From contig NZ_AP031573.1 in assembly GCF_041154745.1 (NCBI RefSeq), positions 496,001 to 560,000 on the forward strand: 64,000 nt of DNA, written 5' to 3'. Position numbers and translations under genes: made by a program. Below, piece by piece: positions 48,261 to 62,826 of the stretch. The notes under the pieces were generated by a model that saw nothing but the letters and a program-made list of their open reading frames with translations, did not search any database and was not told where the DNA came from. Within the stretch, counting starts at the first letter, position 1, and every line of letters begins with the position of its first letter. Origin of the DNA: Flavobacterium sp. CFS9 (GTDB lineage: Bacteria; Bacteroidota; Bacteroidia; Flavobacteriales; Flavobacteriaceae).

Positions 48261-48284
48261 TCGTTCTCGCTTTTAAAATATTCG

Positions 48285-48319
48285 AAACCTCTAAACTTAA
48301 AAACTTTAGAGGTTTTTTA
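48285..48319 (+). terminator. Terminator after the lipoprotein pair
   Basis: AAACCTCTAAA pairs with TTTAGAGGTTT around a 9-base loop, running into T residues 25 bases after the propeller lipoprotein stop. Confidence 0.88.
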
Positions 48320-48329
48320 TTGAAACAAA

Positions 48330-48584
48330 GTATAATAATCAGAATTGCTTCTCCCATTCTCCATAATACAGATAAGTCCATTTTATTACAACTCTCCAGT
48401 GATCTTCGCGTAAACCTTTGCGCACCTGGCGGTTAAAAAACAGCACAAGAATCATACGACTTCATACTCTTTCCTTTTTATATCCCAATTCCTAACATTC
48501 TAAAAATAAAAAACTCCCACTCAAATGAGAAGGAGTCCTAAAAAAACAAAGCAATTTCTATTTTTTTAATTACAATATTTTTTT
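48330..48584. repeat. Repeat-like intergenic sequence
   Basis: The segment around 48400-48440 (GTGATCTTCGCGTAAACCTT, then TGCGCACCTGGCGGTTAAAA) resembles the degenerate CTTCGCG/CTTTGCG repeat seen at 27.6-27.8 kb. I see no gene here. Confidence 0.3.
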
Positions 48585-50039
48585 CTAAGCCAATCCACGG
48601 GTCAACCAACCTTTTTTATTGGCTGTAACGATAGCATACGGTGTAATCCAAAACAAACTGAAGGTATAAAAAACACTGTACGAATAAGCCCAAAGTGAAT
48701 CGGCAAAATTATATCTTTTGGTGTAAAATAATACCGGAAAACTCGATACGATTAAAATCGCTAAAAGTGTAGAACTTAAAAACAATATCGGATGTACCGC
48801 AATGAAAAAGAACATAAAAAACATAAACGGATACGCCATAATCATTTTCATCGATTGACTCACAAATAAAAGACGTGCTCCAAATTTAGATTCACTTCTA
48901 AAATCTGTAAAAACGTATTTTGCCATTGCGATGTTCTCACGTACGTTACTTCTGCTCCATCTGATAAACATCTTATACAATCCCGTATATTCTTCCGGTA
49001 CATTCGTAAGTACATATGCATTTCTCTGAAACAACACGTGCTGTCCTTGTTTCAAAATCATATTCGTCATCGCACGATCTTCACCAATATCGGATGGCTG
49101 CCCCATAAAAGTTTGATTGATCCATTCGTCCAGACAAGAAAAAACCGAAGTTTTTCTGTAAGCAGCCGCTGCTCCCGGAGTACAAAGCACAGACCCTAAC
49201 TGACTTTCGGCAGAACGCATGAATTCAAAACTCATTACAAAACTCACATTCAGCATTTTTGGCAAAATTGCTTTTTTATTGTTCAGTACATGAACATTTC
49301 CGGCTACTGCTCCACATTTTTCATCTACTACAAACGGACTCACCAAGTTCCTTAAAGTATCTTTTTTTACGATCGAATCACTATCAACCGTAACAAAAAT
49401 CTCTCCCGTTCCCAATTCAAATCCACGGTGCAATGCGTGACGTTTACCTCTGTTTTCAGGTTGCTGAAAAATCGTCAAACGATCTCCCAATTTTATTTTT
49501 GCCTGCTGCATCCAGTACCAGGTATCGTCTTTACTTCCGTCATCAACCGCTAATATTTGCATCTTTTGTTCCGGAAAATCACTGTCAGCAAGGCTCATCA
49601 AAGTATCCCAAACCAATTTCCCTTCATTGTACGCAGGAACAATCACGGTACAAGTTGGCAACAGCTCATCCGAAACAGATTCAATTGGTTTATAGGTAAA
49701 GTACAAGTATAAATTGTACAAGAAAACTCCGGCCTGAAACACAAACAATACACCTGCCAGTATCAGGAAAGGGAATCCCCAGCTTGAATTTATTCGCTCC
49801 ATCTGAAACTGATCAAAGTCAGATTGCAGCTGATAAGTAGTAAAAGCACCAATAAACAATAGCATGAATGTACTTATCAGTACAAACAAACCCGTCTTAC
49901 TTTTGGTTCGCTCGCTTATTTTATTTGAAGTTACATTGGCATTACTAATACGAAAAATGGAACTGTTTAAGGCTTGTTGGTTATTAAGATCTGGATTTGA
50001 AGTATAAAACTGTTCTGATGTTAAGGTTTCACTTTTCAT
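48585..50039 (-). CDS. Membrane glycosyltransferase, GT2 (NodC/hyaluronan-synthase-like)
   Basis: 484 residues. One or two N-terminal membrane segments (~45-115) precede a cytosolic GT-A domain with an early CTVIVPAYNEG motif near 128, a DSDS metal motif near 219, 'GEDRAMTNMIL' near 318 and 'RWSRSNVREN' near 358. Three or four membrane segments follow. The combination resembles processive polysaccharide synthases such as NodC, IcaA and class I hyaluronan synthase; the last motif is RW without the usual Q-x-x spacing. The product could be a surface polysaccharide. No regulatory BcsB- or Pga-type partner gene is adjacent. Confidence 0.8.
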   Translation of the reverse strand: MKSETLTSEQFYTSNPDLNNQQALNSSIFRISNANVTSNKISERTKSKTGLFVLISTFMLLFIGAFTTYQLQSDFDQFQMERINSSWGFPFLILAGVLFVFQAGVFLYNLYLYFTYKPIESVSDELLPTCTVIVPAYNEGKLVWDTLMSLADSDFPEQKMQILAVDDGSKDDTWYWMQQAKIKLGDRLTIFQQPENRGKRHALHRGFELGTGEIFVTVDSDSIVKKDTLRNLVSPFVVDEKCGAVAGNVHVLNNKKAILPKMLNVSFVMSFEFMRSAESQLGSVLCTPGAAAAYRKTSVFSCLDEWINQTFMGQPSDIGEDRAMTNMILKQGQHVLFQRNAYVLTNVPEEYTGLYKMFIRWSRSNVRENIAMAKYVFTDFRSESKFGARLLFVSQSMKMIMAYPFMFFMFFFIAVHPILFLSSTLLAILIVSSFPVLFYTKRYNFADSLWAYSYSVFYTFSLFWITPYAIVTANKKGWLTRGLA

Positions 50040-50528
50040 ATGACATTACTTTTGATTGCTTTCTAATGGCTCTTATTTAATTCTTCCCTCCGATGCTACA
50101 TTTTGATTAATGGAGGGAATTTATACTAATGCCATTTTGCAAGCGTTATGCCATAATTATTCTTTTACTGATTCCTAGATAATTAGCGGTTTTATATCAT
50201 TTTCAAGTGTGTAATTATTACACGTTTTAGTAAACAGTATACAGTTTTATTGGAGTTTTTGCAGTCTTTGGACGTGACGAAGTTTGGAAATAACGCTTTC
50301 CGTAGTTTATTATTGTTGTTCCGACCGAAGTTAAATGATTTTTGGAATTTGGAATTTTAAAATCTTGGAATTTTCGAATATCTTTTCCGAAGCCGTTTCC
50401 AGCCATCTGCTCTATCTTTTCCTTGCTAAAGAAGCAAGAAAAAGGATGCCGCTCCTGTCTGGGCTAGGGCAATTGTGCGTACAAGAAGTTTTACGGTACG
50501 AAATCAATCGTTCTAATTAAAAAACCAT
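50040..50528. other. Intergenic region with a repeat-like hairpin
   Basis: The 489-base gap includes a segment at ~50390-50470 with a hairpin (CTTTTCCTTGCT against AGCAAGAAAAAG, one mismatch, 50416-50444) that looks like a dispersed flavobacterial intergenic repeat. An open frame at 50335-50520 runs through it and is rejected. No promoter or small gene is assigned. Confidence 0.4.
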
Positions 50529-52679
50529 CTAAACCAAATTTTGTTTACTCCAAAGATTATAATATTCCAATCTCTGATCCAACAATTCGAAATGATTTCC
50601 CGATTCGACGATCGTTCCGTTTTTCATAACCAATATCGTATCTGCATTCGCAATTGTACTTAAACGGTGGGCAATCACAATGATTGTTTTTCCCTGAGTT
50701 TTAAAATTGTCAATAACCTCTTTCACCATTTTTTCAGAGGCTGTGTCTAATGATGCTGTAGCTTCATCCATCAATAAAATATCCGGATTTTTGTATAATG
50801 CTCTGGCAATGGCAATTCTTTGTTTTTGCCCGCCTGACAACATCGCACCATTTTCTCCAATCTGTGTTTCGAATCCATTGGGTAATTTCTCAACAAAATC
50901 CGTTATTCCCAATTGTTTGGACAGGTCCAAAATTCTTTGAATATTCGGAAACGAATCGCCTAAGGCAATATTCTCAATAATATTTCCGGAAAATAAATTA
51001 AGCTGTTGCGGAATAACTCCTATCACTTTACGCAAGCTTTGATAATGAACAAACTGTGAATCATATTCTCCAATATAAATCTTACCTTCTTTAACAGGAT
51101 ACAAATTTTGAAGCAATGAAATTAAAGTGGTTTTTCCGCTGCCGCTTTCCCCTACTATGGCCGTTGTTTGATTCTTTTTGAAAACCGCATTAAAGTTTTT
51201 AAATACCTCCAGACGGGATCCATATCTGAAAGAGACATTTTCAAATCGGATATCTCCTAAATGTTCTTTCTGCAATTCAATTTTATTTTCTGTTTCTTCT
51301 CTTTCCAAATCCATAATTTCAAAGAGCCGATCTGCCGCAATTAAAGCATTCTGAGCTGTTTTGTTCATGTTGATTAAAGAGGCAACCGGAGACGTAAAAT
51401 ACCCAATCAGCGCATAAAAAGAAAATAATTCTCCAGGAGTAATGGATCTGTCGATTACATAACCCGATCCAATCCACATTAAAACTACAGTAAAGGCCGA
51501 AGCTAAAAATTGTGTAGAAGTTCCTGCAAAGATTCCGTTTAAACCTGACTTGTAGGTTGTAAACAACAGTTTAACAAACTTGTTTTCTGTTTTTAAATTA
51601 GAGAAATCCTCGATTCCAAATTCTTTTACAGTCCTTACATGGGTAATACTCTCTACTAATTGTGTTTGAAGTTCGGCAGCATTCTCCATAATAGTCCTTT
51701 CCACTTTTTTGTTGAATTTATTTAAAACAAAGTAGATCACAGCATAAAACGGAATCACCAGAACAATTACCAAAGCCAGTTTCCAGTAATAGGTAAACAT
51801 TAATACAAATGAGAAAACGACAATAAATAGATTGACAATCATTTCAATGGCAACTTCGTTTATAAACGAGCGAATTTTTACGGCGTCACTTATTCTTGAA
51901 GTAATTTCTCCTATTTGCATGGTGTCAAAAAAACGCTGTGGCAGATGCAGCAAATGTTTATAATACCCCAGAATTAATTTTGCGTCAATTAGCTGTCCGG
52001 TTTTCATCACAAAAATGCTTTTTTTCGATCCAATATAGGCTTGCAGCAAGATTATCACAATCATAGAAAGGCTCAATAAATTAAGCAGTTTTCTATTGCC
52101 ATCTACCAAAACATAGTCCGTTATTTTTTGAATGTAAATGGACATCGCCAGTCCTAAAACGGTAAACAAAATAGCTCCAACCAGAGCCTGAAGTAAGATG
52201 GTCTTATGGGGTTGGATTAAATTCCAAAACCTTTTTAAAGGTGCTGTTTTCTCATTTACTGTTTTAAAATCGTCATTGGGAGCAAAGAGAATTAATACCC
52301 CTGACCAGATTTTCTGAAATTCTTCGAAGGTATAGTTTTCCATTTTGCCCAAACCCGGATCCATGACCGTAATTTTAGATTTTTCTACCTTATAAATTAC
52401 CACATAGTGCTGTAACTGTTCTTTGATGACAACATGCGCAATTGCCGGAAGTGGAATTTTATCTAAAGCATCTAAACCGCCTTTAACTCCTTTGGCGGTA
52501 AACCCCATTTTTTCGGCACCTTCAATGATCCCCAGAATATTGGTCCCTCGTTTATCGGTATTCGCAAACTGACGTATTCTGGCTATAGGCAGATTAACTT
52601 TGAAATGACTTCCAATAGAAGACAGACAAGCAGCGCCACAATCTTTAACATCATGTTGTTTTATTTTTATTGAACTCAT
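50529..52679 (-). CDS. Bacteriocin exporter: ABC transporter with C39 peptidase domain
   Basis: 716 residues. The N-terminal C39 peptidase has catalytic Cys14 in KDCGAAC, His91 in LQHYVV and Asp107 in MDPG. Six membrane segments lie at ~155-430 (ABC exporter type), followed by an ATPase with Walker A GESGSGKTT near 507, LSGGQKQRIAIARAL and Walker B ILLMDEATASLD. Proteins of this type cleave double-glycine leaders and export the mature peptide. It would process all six leader peptides encoded at 55.9-59.3 kb. The HlyD adaptor gene ends 2 bases upstream, so both are co-transcribed. Confidence 0.95.
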   Translation of the reverse strand: MSSIKIKQHDVKDCGAACLSSIGSHFKVNLPIARIRQFANTDKRGTNILGIIEGAEKMGFTAKGVKGGLDALDKIPLPAIAHVVIKEQLQHYVVIYKVEKSKITVMDPGLGKMENYTFEEFQKIWSGVLILFAPNDDFKTVNEKTAPLKRFWNLIQPHKTILLQALVGAILFTVLGLAMSIYIQKITDYVLVDGNRKLLNLLSLSMIVIILLQAYIGSKKSIFVMKTGQLIDAKLILGYYKHLLHLPQRFFDTMQIGEITSRISDAVKIRSFINEVAIEMIVNLFIVVFSFVLMFTYYWKLALVIVLVIPFYAVIYFVLNKFNKKVERTIMENAAELQTQLVESITHVRTVKEFGIEDFSNLKTENKFVKLLFTTYKSGLNGIFAGTSTQFLASAFTVVLMWIGSGYVIDRSITPGELFSFYALIGYFTSPVASLINMNKTAQNALIAADRLFEIMDLEREETENKIELQKEHLGDIRFENVSFRYGSRLEVFKNFNAVFKKNQTTAIVGESGSGKTTLISLLQNLYPVKEGKIYIGEYDSQFVHYQSLRKVIGVIPQQLNLFSGNIIENIALGDSFPNIQRILDLSKQLGITDFVEKLPNGFETQIGENGAMLSGGQKQRIAIARALYKNPDILLMDEATASLDTASEKMVKEVIDNFKTQGKTIIVIAHRLSTIANADTILVMKNGTIVESGNHFELLDQRLEYYNLWSKQNLV

Positions 52680-52680
52680 T

Positions 52681-53823
52681 CTACTTATTATTTGCTATTT
52701 GTTTTGGATTTAGCCAATTGTCTATTTTGTCAAATAACAAATCAAACAAACTTCTTCGGGTAATGATGTATCTGGCTGTCAAGGTCATTCCTTTAGAAAT
52801 ATTGGCCTTATAACCTGACTTAAGTTGTAAAGTCCTTGAATTTAAGGCGCATCGCACCTTAAAAAAAGCCTGATCGTTTTGCAGCGTAATATTACGATCA
52901 ACATCAATCACTTTTCCTTCTAACAAACCCCATTGATTGTAGTTGAAGGCGTCTAACTGAAACTTTACTTCCTGATTTTTCCTGATAAGACCAATATCAT
53001 TGGGAGAAACATTGCACTCAACAATAAGATGATCTGCCGACGAAATGGCTGCAATAGACTGTGAAGCATTTATAAAGGAGCCTTTTTGAATACCTGAATA
53101 ATTTTCTATAGTTCCGGAAACTGGAGCTAAAACGACATAATTGTTTGATTCCGCATTTATCTTAGCGACTGCTCCATTGAGGTTCTTTAAACGATCTACT
53201 AAATCTCTCTTTTGATTTTCCCAGGTTAATTTTTGCTGACTAATGAAACTTTGCAATGCCTGTTTCGACAGACGTAATTCATATTCAAGTTTTTCAAAAT
53301 CGGCTCTGGCAATAATTTCTTTATCGTATAAAATTTTATTGCGGTTATAATTGATTTGTGCCTGCGAGATTTTACTTTGCAATTCATTCTTTCCGGACTG
53401 AAATTTCAAAAGATCCTCTCGTGCCGCAGTAGTCAATAAATAACTGGTTTTATTCTGTAAGAGGTCCGAAACATCTCTGAGCAAAGCTGAAACGGATTTT
53501 GATAAGGTATCCTGAGTCCTTTTATCACTCTCCAGATTTTCTTTGGCAATTTTTAAAATTGTGTCCCCTTTTTGTACAACTGCATTATTCTTTAAATCGA
53601 TCCAATTCACCCGGCCGCTCACCATTGTTGCAACAGGAACATTCTCCGTTTTACTGCGAACAATACCACGACTCTGACTGCTGATATCGAGTTTAATAAC
53701 CGGTAAAAGCGCTAAAAAAACTATGAAAAATAAAAGGATAACAAAATAAATTGAAAAACTTTTTGTTTTATTTTTAGCAATTAGATTTTCAAGGGTGTTT
53801 ATTGGATCTGAACTGAAGTTCAT
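52681..53823 (-). CDS. HlyD-family membrane fusion protein of the peptide exporter
   Basis: 380 residues with one membrane segment at ~25-45, a biotinyl-lipoyl-like beta domain (~65-95), a long coiled-coil hairpin (~100-210) and a C-terminal beta domain. It forms the periplasmic adaptor linking the C39 ABC exporter to an outer-membrane channel of TolC type. No TolC gene is in the window. The gene is placed directly before the exporter in the same operon. Confidence 0.92.
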   Translation of the reverse strand: MNFSSDPINTLENLIAKNKTKSFSIYFVILLFFIVFLALLPVIKLDISSQSRGIVRSKTENVPVATMVSGRVNWIDLKNNAVVQKGDTILKIAKENLESDKRTQDTLSKSVSALLRDVSDLLQNKTSYLLTTAAREDLLKFQSGKNELQSKISQAQINYNRNKILYDKEIIARADFEKLEYELRLSKQALQSFISQQKLTWENQKRDLVDRLKNLNGAVAKINAESNNYVVLAPVSGTIENYSGIQKGSFINASQSIAAISSADHLIVECNVSPNDIGLIRKNQEVKFQLDAFNYNQWGLLEGKVIDVDRNITLQNDQAFFKVRCALNSRTLQLKSGYKANISKGMTLTARYIITRRSLFDLLFDKIDNWLNPKQIANNK

Positions 53824-54108
53824 GAGATATCGATGTATTACATACAGATTGTTCTGTAAAAATTAGTCTAAAAAAGTAAGCTGTAGATTTTCAAAAAGGC
53901 AATAGACATCCCCTTCCTCTTTTTTCAGAAAAAAGAAGTCTTTTGACATTTATAAAAAATAGGGGGAAAAAATTTAAAGTACAGAAAAACCTCAGCGATA
54001 AATTTTCACTCTAAAACTGAAAGTAGTTTTATCTTGTTGATTTATCTGCCAATGATACGATGATCTGAAATGAAAAATGATCAAAGTTCTGGTCTAAGGT
54101 TTATAAGT

Positions 54109-54210
54109 TTATTTTAGAATATACCCCGCAACATATCCAATGAAATAGATCGCTATTCCAATCGAAATGACGATATTAATACGTTTTAATAATTTTAGAT
54201 CGAGGTTCAT
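54109..54210 (-). CDS. 33-residue hydrophobic membrane peptide
   Basis: The ATG at 54210 gives a peptide with charged N-terminus (MNLDLKLLKRINI) followed by one membrane segment of about 20 residues ending IGYVAGYILK. It lies 9 bases after a similar 38-residue frame in the same direction and close to two CPBP genes of the bacteriocin island. Leaderless peptide, immunity peptide or small regulatory protein are all possible; the function is unknown. Confidence 0.4.
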   Translation of the reverse strand: MNLDLKLLKRINIVISIGIAIYFIGYVAGYILK

Positions 54211-54219
54211 AAGGCATAA

Positions 54220-54336
54220 TTAGTTTAATAAATAATATAGTGCCTCTCCACATACCATCCCTGCAAAGTAGAATACAACCGGAAAGATTATTAGTGCATA
54301 AATTAAGTACGTTATTTCGTTGTCTTTTTTATTCAA
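54220..54336 (-). CDS. 38-residue membrane peptide, TTG start
   Basis: The only available start is a TTG at 54336, which lowers confidence. The peptide (NKKDNEITYLIYALIIFP...YFAGMVCGEALYYLLN) has one or two membrane segments and its C-terminal half resembles the neighbouring 33-residue peptide (Y-F-x-G-x-V-x-G pattern). The two could be a related pair of tiny membrane proteins. Confidence 0.33.
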   Translation of the reverse strand: MNKKDNEITYLIYALIIFPVVFYFAGMVCGEALYYLLN

Positions 54337-54384
54337 AAAAGGCTCATTTGTTATATATAGGTTTCATATTTCTATTTTTCATAT

Positions 54385-54519
54385 TTAAAATAAATGTTTA
54401 AAAAATTCTTCAATACTATTCCATTTGTAAAAAATACATAGAAGAAAAATGAAAAGAATTAACTTTTTAGCCACAATCTTAAACTCTTTCTTTTGAATAT
54501 TTTTAAATTTATCTCTCAT
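54385..54519 (-). CDS. 44-residue cationic single-TM peptide
   Basis: The ATG at 54519 starts 8 bases after the stop of the CPBP gene on the same strand. The N-terminal ~20 residues are strongly basic (MRDKFKNIQKKEFKIVAKK), followed by a membrane segment (LILFIFLLCIFY) and a short tail. Position and size suggest an immunity or accessory peptide of the island. I recognise no family. Confidence 0.42.
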   Translation of the reverse strand: MRDKFKNIQKKEFKIVAKKLILFIFLLCIFYKWNSIEEFFKHLF

Positions 54520-54527
54520 ACTTTTTA

Positions 54528-55337
54528 TTATAAAAACTCTTTTCCATTCACTTCAGAAATCTCGTTAGTTTTTAACTGGTATATAAAGAAACCAGATATT
54601 AAAAAAACTATAGTCGTTACAATAGATCCTTCAAATCCAAATTCCCCTCCGCTTAAAAAGTCAGGCTTCTCAGGATAGTATTGCAAGAGACTAATGGTTT
54701 TAATACCACTTATATTACTACCCAATATACAACCAATTGCGAAGTTCCAAAAAGCGTGGATAAAGCTACAGAAGAAGATTGAATTACTCTTTAAATATAT
54801 CAAACTAAAAAAAACTCCTGCTACCACAATATTGATTAAACCTGTAATATTAACATTAGGGTTAAACAAATGAAAGAAACTGAAAAATACCGAAACTAAT
54901 ATTATGTTCTTAACTGAAACTTCTTTTACCAGTATTTTATAAGGAATATATCTGAATAGAATCTCCTCTAATAGTGCCGAAAGAAATATCAAAATAAAAT
55001 AACCAACAATTTCAATGTCCCAATTTATTTCATTTTCTACTTTAATCCATTTAAATAAAATTAGAGAAAAATATACAATGAATGGCGTCAAACAGCTAAA
55101 TAGAGCTAACCAATAGTTACAACTTTTACCAAAAAAATTATTTTTAAAATCGTCATACCATTTTTGCGTTTTAAATAAATATACCGTATAAATCAATTGA
55201 GGAAAAAACGTAGCGATCCACATTTTATAACTAAAACTATTTGTCTTAAAATCCTCAAAAGCAATGAATATAAAAGGTATCGATATAAAAGATACAATTA
55301 AAAAGGCACGAATATAGAAGTTTATTATTTTTTTCAT
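54528..55337 (-). CDS. CPBP (Abi) intramembrane metalloprotease
   Basis: 269 residues with about seven membrane segments. The three family motifs are complete: EEILFR with Glu124, Glu125 and Arg129, His156 in FFHLF, and His194/Asn198 in HAFWN. CPBP/Abi proteins act as prenyl-type proteases or as immunity proteins of bacteriocins. It is encoded in the bacteriocin island 42 bases after a second CPBP gene, so immunity or peptide processing is inferred. Confidence 0.85.
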   Translation of the reverse strand: MKKIINFYIRAFLIVSFISIPFIFIAFEDFKTNSFSYKMWIATFFPQLIYTVYLFKTQKWYDDFKNNFFGKSCNYWLALFSCLTPFIVYFSLILFKWIKVENEINWDIEIVGYFILIFLSALLEEILFRYIPYKILVKEVSVKNIILVSVFFSFFHLFNPNVNITGLINIVVAGVFFSLIYLKSNSIFFCSFIHAFWNFAIGCILGSNISGIKTISLLQYYPEKPDFLSGGEFGFEGSIVTTIVFLISGFFIYQLKTNEISEVNGKEFL

Positions 55338-55379
55338 TTTTTATCAAAATAGCATTATCATGTTGTGATTTGTTACTAG

Positions 55380-55847
55380 TTAAGGAAAGTAAACATTCAT
55401 GATAAATATTATACCATTATAAATAGTATGTGCAATTAATGTTAGTAAGAATGCGTTTTTTACACTTCTGCCCTTTACATACAAAATGGCTAATAACATC
55501 CCAGCAACAAAGGCAAATAAAAAATAAAAAACATTATAGAGATGCGTTGAGGCAAAAACCAAAGCAGATAGTAAACAACAATACTTGAGTGCCATTTTTC
55601 CACTTTTGCAAATTTCAATAACTGCGTATTGAAATAAAACAGTTTCTAGAAGCGGACCTACAATAACAAATAAAACTAGTTTTTCATTAATAGTGTAATT
55701 TTCATTAAACCCTCTCCCTAAATCACTATTAAAAAGCTTTGCAATAACGTAAAAAATATAACTATTTAAAAAGTTCAAAATAATTACAATTAATGCAAGT
55801 TGCCATTGGTGAAGATTCTTAATAGTTTCTTTTATTTTTAATATCAT
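55380..55847 (-). CDS. Short, degenerate CPBP-family membrane protein
   Basis: 155 residues with four membrane segments. Motif 1 reads LLETVLFQ: Glu68 is kept but the second Glu is Thr69 and the Arg is Gln73. Motifs 2 (His102 in STHLYN) and 3 (His140/Asn144 in HTIYN) are intact. It is much shorter than a full CPBP protein and may be non-catalytic. Located between the first peptide pair and the complete CPBP protein, it fits an immunity role; this is inference. Confidence 0.72.
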   Translation of the reverse strand: MILKIKETIKNLHQWQLALIVIILNFLNSYIFYVIAKLFNSDLGRGFNENYTINEKLVLFVIVGPLLETVLFQYAVIEICKSGKMALKYCCLLSALVFASTHLYNVFYFLFAFVAGMLLAILYVKGRSVKNAFLLTLIAHTIYNGIIFIMNVYFP

Positions 55848-55863
55848 ATATTATTTTATTCAA

Positions 55864-55895
55864 TAAAGAGGCTGTTTTGTATAGCAGCCTCTTTA
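55864..55895 (-). terminator. Hairpin after peptide pair 1
   Basis: TAAAGAGGCTG pairs with CAGCCTCTTTA around a 10-base loop, 37 bases after the last peptide stop on the - strand. It may partly terminate the peptide transcript before the CPBP genes. Confidence 0.65.
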
Positions 55896-55931
55896 GATTT
55901 TATAAAAAATCGTTTTTTAAGCTATTATTGT

Positions 55932-56099
55932 CTACCATCTTTGGGCAACTTGCGGCTCAATATCTCGTAAGGAACGATAGAAAGAACCGGCTGCGTAGCC
56001 AATTCCATAGGCAACATCTCCCCAAAATCCTCCCGCATCTATTGATACCATTTCACTAAAAGTCAATTCGTTTAAGTTCAAATTATTTAAATTTTCCAT
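55932..56099 (-). CDS. Double-glycine-leader bacteriocin-like peptide 1a
   Basis: 55 residues from the ATG at 56099; an upstream in-frame ATG at 56144 overlaps the previous gene and is less likely. The leader is MENLNNLNLNELTFSEMVSI with DAGG at its end, giving a cut after residue 24 and a mature peptide of 31 residues (FWGDVAYGIGYAAGSFYRS...). The mature part holds the helix-helix GxxxG motif GYAAG. It is separated by 23 bases from peptide 1b, upstream, so the two could form a two-peptide (class IIb) bacteriocin exported by the C39 ABC transporter. Confidence 0.8.
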   Translation of the reverse strand: MENLNNLNLNELTFSEMVSIDAGGFWGDVAYGIGYAAGSFYRSLRDIEPQVAQRW

Positions 56100-56122
56100 T
56101 TTCTTTATTTTTTTATTATTTA

Positions 56123-56287
56123 CTAATGACTGGCTGCTTCCCAACCTTCTCTAAATCCTTTTTTAATTTCATCCCAATGATCAATAACTTGACCTAGAAC
56201 CCATTTCCCCCAACCATTACTGCCGGCTTCAATTGAAAGGAGTTCTTGAGTATTAAGCTCTTCTAATCTTAATTTTTTTAAATCCAT
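56123..56287 (-). CDS. Double-glycine-type leader bacteriocin-like peptide 1b
   Basis: 54 residues from ATG 56287. The leader MDLKKLRLEELNTQELLSI ends in EAG, with Ser instead of the second Gly; the cut would follow residue 22. The mature 32 residues (SNGWGKWVLGQVIDHWDE...) contain GFREG, a GxxxG motif. It shares leader wording with the peptides at 57.4 and 59.2 kb. It is the first gene behind the promoter at 56471-56502 and precedes 1a. Confidence 0.78.
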   Translation of the reverse strand: MDLKKLRLEELNTQELLSIEAGSNGWGKWVLGQVIDHWDEIKKGFREGWEAASH

Positions 56288-56470
56288 AGTTCTCTATTTT
56301 AAATTGATTAATACTTATGCGGTTTATTTTTTTACCGCGATCATCAAGTTCTTTTTTAGATTCATTAAATCTTGAATCATTGTTTTGTAATGGCCACTTA
56401 CATTTAAGAAAATAATCTAATTCCTGCAGTGACGTCTTACTGTAAAAATCATTTCTATTTTTCTTACTTT

Positions 56471-56502
56471 CAAAACTAGACAAACACATTAACACTTACA
56501 AA
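56471..56502 (-). promoter_or_regulatory. Bacteroidota promoter for peptide pair 1
   Basis: On the - strand TTTG (56499-56502), a 20-base spacer and TAGTTTTG (56471-56478) match the TTTG-N20-TAnnTTTG consensus. It lies about 180 bases before peptide 1b. Confidence 0.75.
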
Positions 56503-56508
56503 AATTGA

Positions 56509-56534
56509 ATATCGAAATTCCTGAATTTCGATAT
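56509..56534. promoter_or_regulatory. Perfect 12+12 palindrome upstream of promoter 1
   Basis: ATATCGAAATTC, two spacer bases and GAATTTCGATAT. It ends 7 bases before the -33 element and is preserved in the second copy at 59469-59494. It is a candidate binding site for the AraC-type regulator encoded at 59.6 kb. Confidence 0.72.
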
Positions 56535-56675
56535 CAAAATCAAAAACACCATACAACCAAAAACACAAATAATTCAAAGTCAACACATTAAACAGTGTGA
56601 TCCATTTTAAGTTTTATTGAGTTTCGTTTCAGCCTTTTAGCAATAAACTATACTTTTGTAAGAAACCAAATAATT

Positions 56676-56696
56676 ATGATTTCTTATACTTCTTAA
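56676..56696 (+). pseudogene. Remnant of the regulator gene start
   Basis: ATG followed by ISYTS and a stop, at the end of repeat copy 1. The intact regulator at 59637 begins with the same MISYT. This shows that the control module was copied together with the gene start but not the body. Confidence 0.75.
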
Positions 56697-56787
56697 GCAC
56701 TAGATTAAATTAATTATTTCATATTTTATTAAATTATCTACTCCCTATCTAGTTGCTTTCAAGCAAATCAAGTTCGAGCTAAAAAGT

Positions 56788-56985
56788 TCATTCTTTCCTT
56801 ATTTTAAAATATATCATTGCAAATATTAGTATTTGTATAATCTCATAAATTCTATAAATCCAAACATTTACAACAAAACCAGAGAAATTATATACTAACT
56901 TTGGTTCTACTATAGATTTTATCAAATGAATAACTGCCATTGTCAAAAATAAGAGTAACAATATTTTAATTATTTTCGCTTTCAA
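56788..56985 (-). CDS. 65-residue two-TM membrane protein, TTG start
   Basis: The frame begins at a TTG; no ATG is available before an in-frame stop. The product is hydrophobic, with membrane segments at ~5-22 and ~40-58 and a basic end (KIRKE). Its position downstream of peptide pair 2 and its size suggest an immunity protein. Low confidence because of the start codon. Confidence 0.42.
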   Translation of the reverse strand: MKAKIIKILLLLFLTMAVIHLIKSIVEPKLVYNFSGFVVNVWIYRIYEIIQILIFAMIYFKIRKE

Positions 56986-57025
56986 TTTTAAGTTTTATTA
57001 ACTATTAAATCATTTTAACATATTA

Positions 57026-57062
57026 AGAGTTGTTTTATTTTCTAAAAAAACAAAACAACTCT
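57026..57062 (-). terminator. Hairpin after peptide pair 2
   Basis: AGAGTTGTTTT and AAAACAACTCT pair perfectly over 11 bases 20 bases after the peptide 2b stop on the - strand. Confidence 0.65.
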
Positions 57063-57082
57063 ATTTCTAAGATAATCTATAA

Positions 57083-57235
57083 TTAAAGTGCAAAAATCGC
57101 AACAACACCAAATAAAGTAGAACACTGTTTAACTGTTGTAGCCAATGCCCTTCCCATTCGATATCCCCATTCTTCAGAAGACCCACCTTCAATATTCAGC
57201 AATTCAAATTCATTTAATTCAATCAACTTTTCCAT
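57083..57235 (-). CDS. Double-glycine-leader bacteriocin-like peptide 2b
   Basis: 50 residues from ATG 57235. The leader MEKLIELNEFELLNI ends in EGG; cutting after residue 18 leaves 32 residues (SSEEWGYRMGRALATTVK...) with GYRMG as a GxxxG motif and one cysteine. It starts 15 bases after the stop of peptide 2a. Confidence 0.8.
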   Translation of the reverse strand: MEKLIELNEFELLNIEGGSSEEWGYRMGRALATTVKQCSTLFGVVAIFAL

Positions 57236-57250
57236 AATTATTTAATTTAG

Positions 57251-57409
57251 TTAAAGATTATCTAAAAATCCATTAATAAATCCCTTAGCAAAACTTAAAG
57301 CTTCTCTACCAGCCCATATTGTACCACCTGTAAACGGCAAAACTCCTCCTTCTACTAACTGTACTTCTTGAGCATTAAGCTCTACTAAATTCAATTTTTC
57401 TAAATCCAT
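57251..57409 (-). CDS. Double-glycine-leader bacteriocin-like peptide 2a
   Basis: 52 residues from ATG 57409; an upstream in-frame ATG at 57454 is less likely because it lies outside the leader pattern. The leader MDLEKLNLVELNAQEVQLV ends in EGG. The mature 30 residues (VLPFTGGTIWAGREALSFAK...) contain GFING, a GxxxG motif, and a GGTIWAG segment. It pairs with 2b. Confidence 0.83.
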   Translation of the reverse strand: MDLEKLNLVELNAQEVQLVEGGVLPFTGGTIWAGREALSFAKGFINGFLDNL

Positions 57410-57564
57410 AATTTTAAAATTTAAGCGGTTAATTAATAATTTAAACAAAATCATCTTCCCTAGAATTATTTTGTAAGAACAGACTTACTATACTTATATC
57501 TAATAACATTGGAGGGAAGTACTAATTTTTCGAATAACTCCAGGAATATTGAAGTCAATATTTT

Positions 57565-58806
57565 CTAACTTTTATTTTTCATAGATATAATAATCCCTAA
57601 ATAGATCTGAAAATCGTTAGATAAAGAAGGCGCTTCAGGAAGAAATCCATTTGTTTTATAGGACATTCCTAAATTAAAATATGCTGATGGTTTTGTATCA
57701 TTTTCTCCTTTAGAGAATCTCATCGCTAATTCAGATTTTACACCTAATCCGACTTCTTTTTCTTTTGTTCTAAATTCTAAATTTCTTGGTTGCTCCCAAA
57801 AATCTATCGACGAATTCAATAAAAATTTATCATCTAAGAAAGAATAATTATGCAAACCAATACCACCTGCTAGAAAAGTATAACTTTTGTTGAAGTACTG
57901 TCTGAAATAAGGATTAAGTTTATATTTATCGCTGATCTTTAAGTACGCGTTTTGTTCTATAAAATCGCCGAAAGGCGCCAAAGAATAACTAACCGAAAAA
58001 TTTCCGGTGACAATATCTGAAATCCTATAATTTCTGCTCTTCCAAAGATTTGGATTTAAAAAATTAACTAATGACATATAACCTATTCTTCTGGCATATG
58101 ATTTCTCCTCTTTGGTTAAATCCTCTCTTTGCGTATAACGATAAAATTCCATAGAAAGTCTGTGCAAATGCCGGATCATTCCATATACATCATGTCCAAC
58201 AATATCACGATCAAGTTCATTACTGTCAACTTCTTTAATTTTTGTTTTTGAATCAAAGAAACTGGTTAAATAATAAAATTGAGTAGCCAATTTTCTTATT
58301 ACATAGTCTGGATAAAGAACTTTATAATCTTCTTCATTAAAACTAAAGTAACTATCAGATTTTCTCAAATAAGCATAATCCGACTCCAATCCGGCTGTAT
58401 GAAGCCTAATGTAATTGGGAAAGGAGTTATTCCTTAAATTGATAAGCGTTTCATTAGTTACTCCTGTTACTTTAGCCACTAAATTTTTATCCATAAAAGG
58501 TTTACTAATACTTCCTATACCAAGTTCAGAAAGTACAGACTGATGGCCTGCTTCATGGGTAATTGCCTGTCCGATTAAAGATGTAAAGATCAATAACCCT
58601 CCTGTATATAATTTTTCTTCTTTTTTTGTATTCTGTGAATTATTTATTTGACCACCTATAAAACGAATAGAATTTAGCATTAAATCATTGCTTTGATCCA
58701 TCGTAAATAAATAAGACTTTCCTTCATATAAATTATAATTATAGTACTTTGATTGAGCACTATTTATAAAAGGCACCACTAGAAAAACAATAAGTATATG
58801 TTTCAT
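57565..58806 (-). CDS. Outer-membrane-type protein with HExxH metallopeptidase motif
   Basis: 413 residues with a signal peptide ending near residue 17 (INSAQ). Residues 84-88 read HEAGH in a helix-like segment (IGQAITHEAGHQSVL), the zinc motif of metallopeptidases. The C-terminal ~150 residues are beta-strand rich with alternating aromatic residues and end in a hydrophobic strand (FQIYLGIIISMK), like a small outer-membrane barrel. It lies between peptide pairs 3 and 2 in the same direction. A role in peptide maturation, degradation or self-protection is possible; no known family is assigned. Confidence 0.72.
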   Translation of the reverse strand: MKHILIVFLVVPFINSAQSKYYNYNLYEGKSYLFTMDQSNDLMLNSIRFIGGQINNSQNTKKEEKLYTGGLLIFTSLIGQAITHEAGHQSVLSELGIGSISKPFMDKNLVAKVTGVTNETLINLRNNSFPNYIRLHTAGLESDYAYLRKSDSYFSFNEEDYKVLYPDYVIRKLATQFYYLTSFFDSKTKIKEVDSNELDRDIVGHDVYGMIRHLHRLSMEFYRYTQREDLTKEEKSYARRIGYMSLVNFLNPNLWKSRNYRISDIVTGNFSVSYSLAPFGDFIEQNAYLKISDKYKLNPYFRQYFNKSYTFLAGGIGLHNYSFLDDKFLLNSSIDFWEQPRNLEFRTKEKEVGLGVKSELAMRFSKGENDTKPSAYFNLGMSYKTNGFLPEAPSLSNDFQIYLGIIISMKNKS

Positions 58807-58836
58807 AAATTATTAAAATATTCTTTTTCTATAAAA

Positions 58837-58903
58837 ATGACTACCACTATTTGAGTTAGATCCAAAAAATATTAAAAATTAAATTCAAATAGTAAATAGT
58901 CAT
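58837..58903 (-). terminator. Hairpin after peptide pair 3
   Basis: Arms of 16 bases (ATGACTA and ACTATTTGA against TCAAATAGT and TAGTCAT, one internal loop) lie 78 bases after peptide 3b, with several T residues beyond on the - strand. Confidence 0.55.
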
Positions 58904-58980
58904 TTCTTTAATTAAATATTATTGACTAGACTCTTATTACGATGATAAACCGTATAAAAGCAAAAAAGTTTCTTTTAACA

Positions 58981-59115
58981 TTAATCCAAAAGATCAAGAA
59001 GGAAACGTGTTCCCAAGGCTGCTAAAAAAACTAACCCCCATATAAAACCTCCAGAGATTTCCGTTTGTTCTTGGAGAGGCATTTCTGTAACCCCAATTTT
59101 GTCTAAGTCTATCAT
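58981..59115 (-). CDS. Double-glycine-leader bacteriocin-like peptide 3b
   Basis: 44 residues from ATG 59115. The leader MIDLDKIGVTEMPLQEQTEI ends in SGG. The mature 21 residues (FIWGLVFLAALGTRFLLDLL) are strongly hydrophobic. It starts 14 bases after peptide 3a stops. Confidence 0.7.
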   Translation of the reverse strand: MIDLDKIGVTEMPLQEQTEISGGFIWGLVFLAALGTRFLLDLLD

Positions 59116-59129
59116 AATCTTTATTTTTT

Positions 59130-59258
59130 TTAAGTTGTTAACATATACGCAATTGCCCCTATAAGAACTCCTACAAGAATTTCTAGAAGAAACCCTCCTT
59201 CAATATCTTCCATTTCTTGAGCATTAAGCTCCACTAACCCTAAATTTTCTAAATTCAT
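59130..59258 (-). CDS. Double-glycine-leader bacteriocin-like peptide 3a
   Basis: 42 residues from ATG 59258. The leader MNLENLGLVELNAQEMEDI ends in EGG. The mature 20 residues (FLLEILVGVLIGAIAYMLTT) are hydrophobic and contain GVLIG, a GxxxG motif. The leader matches those of peptides 2a and 1b. Confidence 0.77.
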   Translation of the reverse strand: MNLENLGLVELNAQEMEDIEGGFLLEILVGVLIGAIAYMLTT

Positions 59259-59431
59259 GACATTATGATTTAAAATGTTAATTATTATACGGTTTATTTT
59301 TCCGCGTCCTTTTTTTTTAGATTCATTACTTTTCGAATCTATGGTGTAGTAATGGTCATTTACATTTAAGAATACAATCTAATTCTTGCAGTGACGTCTT
59401 ACTGTAAAAATCATCTCTATTTTCTTACTTT

Positions 59432-59463
59432 CAAAACTAGACAAACACATTAATACTTACAAA
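59432..59463 (-). promoter_or_regulatory. Bacteroidota promoter for peptide pair 3
   Basis: TTTG (59460-59463), a 20-base spacer and TAGTTTTG (59432-59439) on the - strand match the consensus exactly as in copy 1. It lies about 170 bases before peptide 3a. Confidence 0.75.
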
Positions 59464-59468
59464 AATTG

Positions 59469-59494
59469 AATATCGAAATTCCTGAATTTCGATA
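59469..59494. promoter_or_regulatory. Perfect 12+12 palindrome upstream of promoter 3
   Basis: Identical to the palindrome at 56509-56534. It lies 6 bases upstream of the -33 element and between divergent genes, as expected for an operator of the adjacent regulator. Confidence 0.72.
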
Positions 59495-59636
59495 TCAAAA
59501 TCAAAAATATTATACAAAATAAAATACAAACAAATCATTATCAATGCTTTACGAAATTCAAATCGTATTAAGTTTTATTGAGTTTCGTTTCAGCCTTTTA
59601 GCAATAAACTATACTTTTGTAAGAAACCAAATAGTT

Positions 59637-60359
59637 ATGATTTCTTATACGCACTACAATCACGAATTTTTACTACTCTTTACAATACCCCTCTACGCAC
59701 AAAATCTAAAAAAAGACCTTACCTATATCACTCCTTATTTAGTTCTAGAAAAAGAGAATGTGATACAATCACTCACTAATGATCAAACCAAATCCTATTG
59801 GAGTATTGGGTTATTATTTCTATTGGTAATTATTGCACTAAGTTTTGGGATCTATCAGTATTTAATCAAAAAGAGACAGTCCTCTCAATTTGAAAAAATA
59901 ATGGATAAATCATCAAATAATGAAATACAAACCGTTGAAATAAATAAACAGGAAACCAAAACAACTAAACCTGGAATAGAAGGTATTGGTATTAATGAAG
60001 AATTAGTTGAACAAATATTAGAAAAACTAACTCATTTTGAACTAACAAAGGGATATTTAGGATCAAACATTACCGTTCAGTCCCTATCTTATACTTTTGA
60101 AACTAATAGTAAATATATTTCCAAAGTAGTTAATAGCTATAAAGAAAAAACATTTGTTCAATATATTAATGATCTAAGAATCGAACATGCTTTAGAATCT
60201 TTAGAAAAAGATCCTAAATTACAGAAATATACTATTCGAGCGTTGGCTATTGAGTTCGGCTTTAATAACGCTGAATCATTTTCTACCGCTTTTTATAAAA
60301 AATCAGGTATTAAGCCTGTTAACTTTATCAAACAATTGGAAAAAACTACTAATAGTTAA
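59637..60359 (+). CDS. Membrane-anchored AraC-type regulator of the bacteriocin island
   Basis: 240 residues from ATG 59637, chosen because the TACTTTTG element lies just before it; a frame start at 59544 would lie inside the promoter region. An N-terminal hydrophobic stretch (1-22, ending PLYAQ) is followed by a short charged part and a membrane segment at ~57-77 (IGLLFLLVIIALSFGIYQYLI). A cytosolic AraC HTH domain follows (~150-238, ITVQSLSYTFETNSKYISKVV, IRALAIEFGFNNAESFSTAFYKKSG). Related flavobacterial regulators carry long TPR sensors before the membrane segment; here that part is nearly absent, which looks like an internal deletion. It likely acts at the palindromes. Confidence 0.82.
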   Translation: MISYTHYNHEFLLLFTIPLYAQNLKKDLTYITPYLVLEKENVIQSLTNDQTKSYWSIGLLFLLVIIALSFGIYQYLIKKRQSSQFEKIMDKSSNNEIQTVEINKQETKTTKPGIEGIGINEELVEQILEKLTHFELTKGYLGSNITVQSLSYTFETNSKYISKVVNSYKEKTFVQYINDLRIEHALESLEKDPKLQKYTIRALAIEFGFNNAESFSTAFYKKSGIKPVNFIKQLEKTTNS

Positions 60360-60465
60360 ATGCATAAAATGACCAATCCTTATTTTATAAAAATTACTCT
60401 AACCAAATTTTATTACATCCGACATCGCAAATACTCTAAAAAAAATTACATTTGAAGCTTAATTT

Positions 60466-62826
60466 ATGCCTCAAATTATGATTCGCAACAGAAATCTTAT
60501 CAGTGTACTTGCTTTACTGGCTGTCTTTTTTTATATCCCAACTGCCTATTCGCAAACTACTCCTCCAAAAACAGAAACCAAATCAAAACTATTTGAAGAA
60601 ACCACGACAGATAGTGATTATCTGATGGCTATTGAAAAAGCGGGAGAAGTTTTGGAATCTGCTCATAACGATACTGAATTTGATGGAAACAGTCATCGGT
60701 TATTTAGCGAAATTAAAGGAACGCAAAGCAAACTCGATCTTATTCTGGCCAGTTTGAAAGGGGCAAACCCAAACGTACGCAATCAACAAATGTATCGTAT
60801 TGTACTTAAAGAAATTGAGCAGGAACTTGACGAACAAAATACAGCCATAAACTCACGAAATCTGGCACTTGAAAAAATCAAAAGCAGAGTAATTGATTTG
60901 CGTAAGGACAAAACTTTGATGGGGCTTTTGAAAGACACCATTCGCCGAAAGCAATTTAAAAGTGAGTTTGCGAATCTGAAAAGAAGATATCTGAGTACCG
61001 ACAGTCTGATGACCAAAAATCAAAGTATTTTAAACCATAATAAACGTCTGACAGTTGAAAGAAAAATAGCCGTATCAAATGCCTTAATTACTGTAGAAAG
61101 CAAACTGGAAAAATCCGGAATCCGTATGCTTAAAAAAGAATACCCGGTTTTATGGAGTACAAACGATTCTGTAGCAAAAAAGATTGTAGGTAAAAACATT
61201 AAAGCCAAAATAATTATTGAAGAAAACGTTGCAGAGTATTACTTAAGTTACCGAGCGGGCGGTTTAATTACACTGGTTTTACTGATGGGATTATTGGGCT
61301 GGTATATTTCCCGCAATTTAAAATACCTCAACAGTAATGCACATGCCGAAAACCTGAATCAGTTTAATTTTAAATACTTAAATCGCGGAGTTGTGGTTCC
61401 GGTCGCTGTCATTGGTCTTAACATTGCTGTCGTAAGCAATTTATATGCTCCTGCTCTGTTTATCGAGTCAATTCAATTGGTTCTTCTGGGACTTTTAACT
61501 GTACTTTTCAAAAACAAATGGTCAGCAATCGCGATGCGAAACTGGTTGTTTCTGGTAGTGCTATTTTTTGTGTTATGTTTTCTGGACTTATTTATTCCGG
61601 TTGGCTTTTTACAGCGCAGTGCCTTTATTATAATTAATATTTTAGGAATACGATACGGTTTAGTACAAATTAAAACGTTAAAAGAACAGCTTTATATCAA
61701 AGGCTTTTTTAAATGGGCCACCATCATTTTTATTGGTTTAAATGTTTTATCCATTATCGATAATCTTTTGGGGAGAGTTTCTCTTGCCAATATGTTAAGC
61801 CTAACCGCTTTTATATCGCTGACACAGATCGTAGCACTAAGCGTACTCTTAAAAATCGTATTAGAGATCATTCTTTTACAAATTTATACCACCCGAATTA
61901 AGCGTGGTATCGAAAAGATTTTTGACCACGAAAGTTTGTCCGATACACTAAAAAGACCTTTCATTATTGTAATCAGCTATATGTGGATCGTGGTCATCGC
62001 GGCCAATTTAAACATTTGGGAATCCTTGCGTACCGGTTTGGGTTCTTTACTAAGCCATCCAAATACAATTGGAAGTGTCACTTTTACTTTAGGGAATATA
62101 GTGTTGTTCTTTATTATTATCTGGGTTGCACACTTGTTACAAAACTATGTAGCCTACTTTTTTGGAGAAATTGACGATGAGAACGAAGAAACCATCAATA
62201 AAAGACAGCATTCTAAATTACTCATCACAAGACTTGTGGTTTTAATAAGCGGTTATCTTTTGGCTGTCGCTGCTTCGGGAATGCCATTAGACAAACTAAG
62301 TATTTTACTGGGAGCATTGGGTGTCGGTGTTGGTCTTGGACTTCAGAATGTCGTTAATAATTTCGTTTCGGGCATTATCCTGATTTTTGATAAACCCATT
62401 CAGGTTGGAGATGTCATCGACATCAGTTCTGAATCTGGCCGCGTAAAATCAATGGGATTGCGTACCACCAAAATCAATGCGCCAAACGGTGCCGAAATCA
62501 TTATCCCGAATGGTAATCTACTCTCGCAAAACATTACCAACTGGACGTATACTGATAATTTTAAACTGGTAGAAATTACCGCTGAGGTTACAGCTGATGT
62601 ACTGCCCGAAAAAATCAATTCTATTATTCTAGAGTCACTTGAAGGTATGGCATTGGTCAATACTACAAAAGTTCCTCAGATTTATTACAGTTCTATCTCA
62701 GATGGAAAATTCAAATTGCAAATAAAATTCTGGTGCAGCATTTACCGTACTGAAGAAACGATCAGCAATGCGAGACAGGTTCTTTTCAGTAATTTTAAAG
62801 AGAAAGGTTTAACGCTGTCAACCTAA
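60466..62826 (+). CDS. Large mechanosensitive channel, MscS family
   Basis: 786 residues with a signal peptide (1-27), a periplasmic coiled region (~60-260), several membrane segments and a C-terminal MscS domain. The pore helix is recognisable near 615-640 (LLGALGVGVGLGLQNVVNNFVSG) and the beta domain by DKPIQVGDVIDI and INAPNGAEIIIPNG. It opens under membrane tension to protect against hypo-osmotic shock, like the large MscK-type channels. A candidate TACATTTG element lies 12 bases upstream of the start. It converges on a terminator shared with the next gene. Confidence 0.92.
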   Translation: MPQIMIRNRNLISVLALLAVFFYIPTAYSQTTPPKTETKSKLFEETTTDSDYLMAIEKAGEVLESAHNDTEFDGNSHRLFSEIKGTQSKLDLILASLKGANPNVRNQQMYRIVLKEIEQELDEQNTAINSRNLALEKIKSRVIDLRKDKTLMGLLKDTIRRKQFKSEFANLKRRYLSTDSLMTKNQSILNHNKRLTVERKIAVSNALITVESKLEKSGIRMLKKEYPVLWSTNDSVAKKIVGKNIKAKIIIEENVAEYYLSYRAGGLITLVLLMGLLGWYISRNLKYLNSNAHAENLNQFNFKYLNRGVVVPVAVIGLNIAVVSNLYAPALFIESIQLVLLGLLTVLFKNKWSAIAMRNWLFLVVLFFVLCFLDLFIPVGFLQRSAFIIINILGIRYGLVQIKTLKEQLYIKGFFKWATIIFIGLNVLSIIDNLLGRVSLANMLSLTAFISLTQIVALSVLLKIVLEIILLQIYTTRIKRGIEKIFDHESLSDTLKRPFIIVISYMWIVVIAANLNIWESLRTGLGSLLSHPNTIGSVTFTLGNIVLFFIIIWVAHLLQNYVAYFFGEIDDENEETINKRQHSKLLITRLVVLISGYLLAVAASGMPLDKLSILLGALGVGVGLGLQNVVNNFVSGIILIFDKPIQVGDVIDISSESGRVKSMGLRTTKINAPNGAEIIIPNGNLLSQNITNWTYTDNFKLVEITAEVTADVLPEKINSIILESLEGMALVNTTKVPQIYYSSISDGKFKLQIKFWCSIYRTEETISNARQVLFSNFKEKGLTLST

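Follow-up and report, generated by a model that had tools for sequence, protein, structure and literature searches.

We describe an island of small genes in a stretch of 64,000 nucleotides (nt) from Flavobacterium sp. CFS9 (positions 496001-560000 of a 5.37-Mb single-contig genome), referred to below as the window. The island encodes three adjacent pairs of peptides with double-glycine (GG) type export leaders, designated pairs A, B and C, together with an ABC exporter carrying a C39 peptidase domain and an HlyD-type adaptor. On the minus strand the genes follow each other in the order A1-A2, a protein of 413 amino acids (aa), B1-B2, a 65-aa protein, C1-C2, two CPBP proteins of 155 and 269 aa, three leaderless small open reading frames (ORFs) named s44, s38 and s33, the HlyD gene and the C39-ABC gene (Table 1). 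A preliminary description of the window had proposed six peptide genes arranged as three pairs, and all six, 42-55 aa long, were confirmed as minus-strand ORFs, with gaps of 14, 15 and 23 nt between partners. The leader endings are also as described, i.e., GG in A1, A2, B1 and B2 and AG in C1 and C2, but the consensus L-x-E-L-x-x-Q-E that was attributed to all six is not strict, A2 reading VTEMPLQE and B2 lacking QE. C2 is likely cut between IDAG and GFW, because its relatives read IDGG followed by KFW. The exporter and the adaptor had been regarded as the only export machinery, which holds for the window, where this is the only such exporter seen, but not for the genome, which has two further C39-ABC proteins aligning from residue 6-7 to 712.

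Conservation of leaders and pairs

For comparison we used the best 80 of 319 matches of an HlyD search in named genomes, the loci being labelled with L-numbers. The window genes were compared with these 80 loci by tblastn and ten held-out loci were mapped, L103-L105 having been left out of the held-out set as duplicates of L081, L046 and L045. The adaptor of the window is 94% identical to that of Flavobacterium sp. UGB4466 and 91% to that of F. collinsii; of 398 Flavobacterium genomes 50 have a match to it (E ≤ 1e-100), the number being 55 in a set of 397 drawn from the most complete ones, and it is present in 8 of 397 genomes sampled across the family, 2 of these 8 being Flavobacterium.

A regular expression for the leader, applied to the whole 64 kb, recovered the six peptides and one spurious ORF, and all 144 ORFs that it matched in the 80 relatives lie on the cluster strand. 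A leader profile built from these matches gave 189 ORFs on the cluster strand versus 1 on the opposite strand at a threshold of at least 8 bits, a count that also takes in window bases 48001-62000, and 37 versus 0 in 14 held-out loci (7.5 bits). The C39-type leaders are real, as the strand ratios of 144:0, 189:1 and 37:0 demonstrate, and the 189-to-1 ratio rules out that they arose by chance. The pairs recur in other species (Table 1); between B2 and its orthologue in L107 there are 17 synonymous and 5 non-synonymous codon differences.

The leader count also bears on the expectation that three pairs sharing one exporter would be unusual. Among 91 loci (the 80 relatives, the window and ten held-out loci), a single unit of GG peptides is found in 50, two in 22, three in 7 and four in 3, and 9 have none. 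It is thus common for one exporter to be accompanied by more than one unit, since 32 of the 91 loci hold at least two and 10 hold at least three, and the expectation was not borne out.

Table 1. Features of the island and its surroundings, in window coordinates
Feature	Position	Strand	Remarks
A1, first peptide of pair A, 42 aa	59130..59258	-	Leader ..VELNAQEMEDIEGG; TIGR03949 25.5 bits (cut-off 21.5); orthologues 71-76% identical in L019, L033
A2, second peptide of pair A, 44 aa	58981..59115	-	Orthologues 70-73% identical directly behind those of A1 in L019, L033; also in held-out L096
B1, first peptide of pair B, 52 aa	57251..57409	-	TIGR03949 20.2 bits, slightly below cut-off; relative in held-out L107
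B2, second peptide of pair B, 50 aa	57083..57235	-	Held-out L107 has a close orthologue following its B1 relative
C1, first peptide of pair C, 54 aa	56123..56287	-	Leader end EAG; relatives in L072, L065, L047, L050, L031, held-out L106
C2, second peptide of pair C, 55 aa	55932..56099	-	84% identical in L072, 60-66% in L050, L065, L047; also in L106
413-aa protein, candidate protective gene of pair A	57565..58806	-	HExGH invariant in 6/6
65-aa protein, candidate protective gene of pair B	56788..56985	-	TTG start; apparently two transmembrane (TM) segments; relative behind pair B in L107
CPBP (Rce1-like) protein, 155 aa, candidate protective gene of pair C	55380..55847	-	PF02517, 42 bits
CPBP (Rce1-like) protein, 269 aa	54528..55337	-	PF02517, 57 bits; 57-58% identical in L050, L047
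s44, small membrane protein without a leader that may mimic a C1-like core	54385..54519	-	61% relative in L072, which also holds pair C
s38, putative leaderless single-TM core mimic	54220..54336	-	TTG start; matches L042 core; 89% identical ORF in L039
s33, putative leaderless single-TM core mimic, possible cognate C2	54109..54210	-	Matches L043 core; 85% identical ORF in L039
HlyD-type adaptor, 380 aa	52681..53823	-	PF13437
C39 peptidase-ABC exporter, 716 aa	50529..52679	-	PF03412, PF00664, PF00005; TIGR01193 516.9 bits (cut-off 523.85)
AraC-type regulator, divergent to A1	59544..60359	+	PF12833, 41.5 bits; homologues in 23/80 loci
Perfect inverted repeat with 12-bp arms, upstream of A1	59470..59495	.	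Followed after a few nt by a promoter-like site
Same inverted repeat, upstream of C1	56509..56534	.	Within duplicated stretch

Class of the pairs and their downstream genes

The window combines adjacent peptide genes, a double-glycine leader (AG in pair C) with a C39 ABC exporter, and a GxxxG motif in five of the six mature parts, namely A1, B1, B2, C1 and C2, as had been noted before; A2 is without it. Shuffling of the six cores leads one to expect 1.8 cores with the motif, and the probability of five or more is 0.0036. In the larger set the motif is found in 97 of 168 distinct cores compared to 50.4 ± 4.7 after shuffling, and neighbouring spacings are not enriched, an enrichment specific to GxxxG being what is expected if the helices pack via this motif. 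Judging from sequence, we call the three pairs class IIb-like two-peptide bacteriocins, which are of an already known kind, because the class IIb model TIGR03949 (lactobin A/cerein 7B) accepts A1, GxxxG is enriched, and CPBP proteins have been reported as immunity proteins. In the excerpted text of PMC8538875, immunity to plantaricins EF and JK and to sakacin 23K is attributed to CPBP (Abi) proteins. The pairing and the class IIb-like nature, which the preliminary description offered as inference, thus gain support from the conserved pairs elsewhere, the GxxxG enrichment, the TIGR03949 match of A1 and a private downstream gene for each pair.

The 127 units that were recognized comprise 60 with two detected peptides, 61 with one and 6 with more. 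Of the 60 two-peptide units, 48 show the leader motif VEL in their first peptide and 9 in their second, and the partners are accordingly of different types. The GG cores themselves vary widely between loci.

Each pair in the window is followed by a gene of its own. The 413-aa protein matches no family in Pfam or NCBIfam. Its relatives stand behind GG peptides in 5 of 5 loci found by tblastn and in held-out L096; it accompanies pair A in L019, L033 and L096, and behind other GG peptides it has relatives in L063, L059 and L057. Pair B together with the 65-aa protein is found in held-out L107, and weaker relatives of this protein stand behind other GG units in L036, L064 and L090. The 155-aa CPBP protein follows pair C in six other loci, i.e., L072, L065, L050, L047, the more distant L031 and held-out L106. 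At the site EExxxR, which we take to be the usual motif site of CPBP proteins, the 269-aa protein reads EEILFR by eye and the 155-aa protein ETVLFQ. The pairs with their private downstream genes look like toxin-immunity cassettes placed on one exporter.

Such an arrangement has precedents. One exporter serves a number of class IIb peptides, encoded together with immunity genes, in the plantaricin locus and in the pneumococcal blp locus. The blp locus is described, in the excerpt of PMC4860687, as a modular bacteriocin-immunity region on one ABC exporter, but in the loci studied here no quorum sensing of the BlpC/BlpH type was seen; they carry instead AraC-type or small helix-turn-helix (HTH) regulators with palindromes, as well as putative core mimics. 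The lactobin A/cerein 7B group shares with the island the adjacent peptide genes, the double-glycine leaders, the C39 exporter, GxxxG and the score of A1 above the cut-off, and differs from it in that the host here belongs to the Bacteroidota, four of the six peptides are unmatched, pair C has AG sites and the candidate immunity proteins are of several unlike types. Membership in the bacteroidetocins was considered and rejected. According to the excerpted text of PMC6671954 these are Bacteroidetes peptides with GG leaders and a C39-type exporter, class IIa-like and single, each containing two or more cysteines, for which no immunity gene was found, and the six cores of the window hold 0, 0, 0, 1, 0 and 0 cysteines.

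Leaderless copies of the peptide cores

In 11 chosen loci that were mapped, the gene shortly behind the pair often encodes a protein of 33-48 aa with one TM segment, the C-terminal half of which repeats the end of one of the cores. Examples, given as core / neighbour, are GYVCGKAYYYATH / GYVTGKVFYYCTH in L015, GRACGEALYYATH / GRIVGEAFFYFTH in L042, FDKGEAFGRHLA / FNKGEIFGRALA in L039 and FEKGEAYGRSLA / FEFGENYGRTLA in L066, and the best of the held-out test described below is GHAVGEAYYHYTH / GHAIGEAYYNFTH in L117. Fourteen strong pairs of core and mimic have an aligned GxxxG in 10 cases and a mimic more hydrophobic than the core in 12. In seven chosen pairs the same codon is used at just 29 of 58 identical residues, so the mimics are not recent DNA copies. 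We compared 178 cores (those of at least 18 residues being entered) with the small ORFs lacking a leader in these loci, 13,124 in all. At E ≤ 0.05 this gave 26 matched ORFs, of which 25 lie on the cluster strand; on that strand reversed cores gave none and five rounds with locally shuffled cores gave 1-2.

The specificity of the resemblance was assessed with 34 non-redundant units (merged from 43, and including the ten held-out loci) in which the gene next to the peptides encodes a small TM protein. The mean score of these proteins against their own pair was 31.0 versus 20.5 after permutation of units, and none of 20,000 permutations reached the real score; such permutation values are optimistic because related species are not independent. 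The own unit ranked first in 12 of the 34 cases and among the top two in 16. An adjacency test in 14 held-out loci, ten of which had been inspected by eye beforehand, comprised nine genes and gave a combined p of 0.0008; the four new loci, L114-L117, supplied one of the nine genes. Its cut-offs differed from those of the own-pair test in that the distance was 150 rather than 250 nt, any small TM ORF within that distance was taken rather than the first gene, and large ORFs counted from 100 rather than 85 aa. L097 was a miss, because its first peptide is frame-disrupted.

We propose that leaderless, membrane-anchored copies of one helix, which keep the GxxxG face that bears the specificity and either pair with that helix or take its place, neutralise two-peptide bacteriocins of Flavobacterium, that they exist in many specificity types which co-vary with their own toxin, and that they also form orphan arrays directed against rivals; we give this proposal about an even chance of being correct. 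The two-peptide kind itself is known, and the leaderless proteins that copy cores are the new part of the findings, a feature more unusual than the number of pairs and absent from the preliminary description. Among the matches listed, in a search that covered the subscription literature in part, neither class IIb pairs from Flavobacterium nor immunity proteins copying a bacteriocin core were described. A genome-mining atlas of class II bacteriocins exists (PMC12648078), and single precursors may therefore be listed elsewhere. Searches of PDB sequences with the mimic/core alignment and with C1 returned nothing useful, and a protein database search with the L042 mimic returned the identical sequence only.

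Antiholins, in which a copy of a membrane-active helix blocks that helix, and other dominant-negative membrane helices offer an analogy, no homology being claimed. The mimics also resemble CbnZ, the immunity protein of carnobacteriocin XY, for which the excerpted text of PMC6957408 gives 42 aa, a single TM segment with a measured N-in C-out orientation and a gene directly after the pair. CbnZ is a precedent for the format, and the excerpt mentions no resemblance of it to CbnX or CbnY. The same excerpt presents immunity to two-peptide bacteriocins as partly understood and the described immunity proteins as differing widely in size and topology. If the likely protector were a copy of the toxin helix matched to it in specificity, the question of immunity would become directly testable; core mimicry would offer a route to immunity genes in Bacteroidota, where genes of 30-50 codons are easily missed, and orphan arrays would predict which rivals are resisted.

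Three ORFs of the window itself belong to this subject. Relatives of s44 stand between two GG genes of L023 and L048. The score of s44 against C1 is 23, exceeded by 12 of 176 reference cores, and that of s33 against C2 is 33, exceeded by 8 of 176; both matches are suggestive only. As a mimic of a window peptide s38 was rejected, its best window score being exceeded by 47 of the 176 reference cores; the lactococcin G-alpha model matches it weakly (E 0.018, 15.1 bits versus a cut-off of 37). Both s38 and s33 fall into one of the mimic types seen in the relatives, a different type in each case; their best-matching cores are in other species, and the array of s44, s38 and s33 could be protection against pairs that the strain has lost or never held. 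The 65-aa protein of pair B was likewise rejected as a core mimic, since 11 other units outscore its own pair.

The interpretation that we consider likely is that the island is a multi-cassette class IIb-like bacteriocin locus with a private protective gene for each pair and with core mimics in its relatives. Several observations weigh against it. With regard to the pairs, 1) A1 alone passes the class IIb model, A2, B2, C1 and C2 having no TIGR03949 match, 2) pair B was seen in just one other locus, 3) a 155-aa CPBP protein (75%) is found in L039 without pair C, and 4) 61 of the 127 units consist of a single detected GG peptide, some of which may have a partner with too low a leader score. With regard to the mimics, 18 of the 34 adjacent proteins fall outside the two best matches to their own pair, L096 carries an L042-type core without a mimic directly behind it, and those of the window are without clear cognates. 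A coarser test of all small TM ORFs against all cores of a locus gave 0 of 2000 in the discovery loci but 375 of 2000, which is not significant, in eight held-out loci. Finally, among the adjacent proteins of up to 50 aa (n = 25) the more positive flank is N-terminal in 16, C-terminal in 6 and equal in 3.

The alternative that survives best concerns the leaderless proteins, which could be decayed bacteriocin genes that have lost their leader, or further toxin peptides, rather than immunity proteins. They do align to cores over 20-30 residues, and broken peptide genes exist (L097). They also span species, and in some of them many codon changes are synonymous (8 synonymous and 4 non-synonymous for s38, 9 and 7 between L039 and L048, but 7 and 18 for s44). 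Their position directly behind their own pair and their hydrophobicity, higher than that of the core in most strong pairs, argue further for immunity proteins, and we regard decay or a toxin role as unlikely.

It is still less probable, in our opinion, that the GG peptides are signals or other secreted factors and that the adjacent membrane genes encode receptors or modulators. Pheromones are also exported by C39 exporters, and C2 weakly resembles the leader of the BlpC pheromone (15.7 bits versus a cut-off of 70); against this stand the great diversity of the cores between loci, the strong enrichment of GxxxG, the absence of any sensor kinase seen adjoining the GG peptides, and the CPBP proteins of the pairs, from a family with reported plantaricin immunity function (PMC8538875, excerpt). 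That the resemblance of mimic and core is mere shared composition of membrane helices is very improbable, because the reversed and shuffled cores gave next to nothing, the unit permutation preserves composition and the held-out adjacent genes agree, even though the composition of TM segments is biased, individual matches have weak E-values (1.5e-6 to 0.05) and the coarse held-out test was not significant.

Proposed mechanism, regulation and other loci

From the anatomy, conservation, linkage and cognate similarity described above we infer the following course of cutting, pairing of the mature peptides, killing, immunity and regulation. The single C39 ABC exporter, together with HlyD, would cut the C39 leaders from each pair and export the peptides. 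The two mature peptides would probably associate via their GxxxG helices and damage the inner membrane of related bacteria. The private genes probably protect the producer, i.e., the HExxH protein (the 413-aa protein) in the case of A, the 65-aa protein in the case of B and the 155-aa CPBP protein in the case of C. In many relatives, and perhaps with s44, s38 and s33, a mimic in the membrane could occupy either the partner peptide or the receptor, so that no active pair would remain. A promoter-palindrome module that is present twice, adjacent to the AraC-type regulator, would probably drive A (then B) from one copy and C (then the exporter genes) from the other.

The two copies of the module lie in a duplicated region, positions 56308-56689 repeating 59278-59650 in pieces at 83-89% identity. 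Just downstream of each inverted repeat (Table 1) there is a promoter-like site TTTG-N-TAnnTTTG, presumably the promoter consensus. Seven such sites were found on the minus strand of the window, three within 400 nt upstream of A1 and one upstream of C1; none is found on this strand upstream of B1, of the HExxH, 65-aa or CPBP genes, of s44 or of HlyD. This pattern suggests two transcription units, A-B and C-exporter. The AraC-type regulator of the window has no TPR match and its relative in L039, 574 aa long, matches TPR models weakly; a short form is also found elsewhere, since the match in L072 (64% over 267 residues) is equally short. Within the repeat, positions 56459-56689 are a copy of the start of the AraC gene and its upstream region, 88% identical to 59420-59650, and this stretch is, judged by the likeness, a trace of cassette duplication.

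Another regulator is found in many other loci. A small HTH-like protein is encoded just upstream of the first GG gene (for example L015:8871-9191), with 42 ORFs in 41 of the 91 loci. Its end resembles a leader (D-E-S-K-E-I-F-G-G), the motif being present in 36 of the 42 ORFs, and by imitating an export leader it could sense the load of the exporter. The L015 protein matched no Pfam or NCBIfam family, and a search of the genome of strain CFS9 for such a regulator gave two matches at chance level (E 0.24 and 0.31). Loci with this regulator carry another palindrome, TTCCGTCCAA-N5-TTGGACGGAA (L027:8112-8136, L042:9016-9040, L110:6188-6216 and others), which in these loci falls within the 3' end of the regulator gene, where it codes for the conserved NFRPILLDG of the protein. 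Eleven places with this palindrome are spread over 9 of 398 genomes, a backward control being found in one genome; ten of the 11 places are known GG loci by coordinates, and the eleventh, L113, adjoins an HTH-type regulator.

Three further observations concern GG peptides elsewhere. The genome of strain CFS9 holds a second GG pair (L110:6296-6780, at about 3,500,300-3,500,780 of the genome) with no exporter within the 14 kb that were fetched; the palindrome of the preceding paragraph lies upstream of it and a frame-disrupted small gene behind it, and an intact protein of L048 that has no leader is similar to its second core (AVWCCYELEAACAAYDARHN / AVFCFYLGSECAKYDLNHS, E 0.16). Near another C39-type ABC gene of the same genome, four short ORFs (L112:4595-5373) have a different GG leader (..LSKKEQ....GGD..). 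In Aquimarina (L089:14339-15684), six identical GG peptides are arranged in tandem behind one different first peptide.

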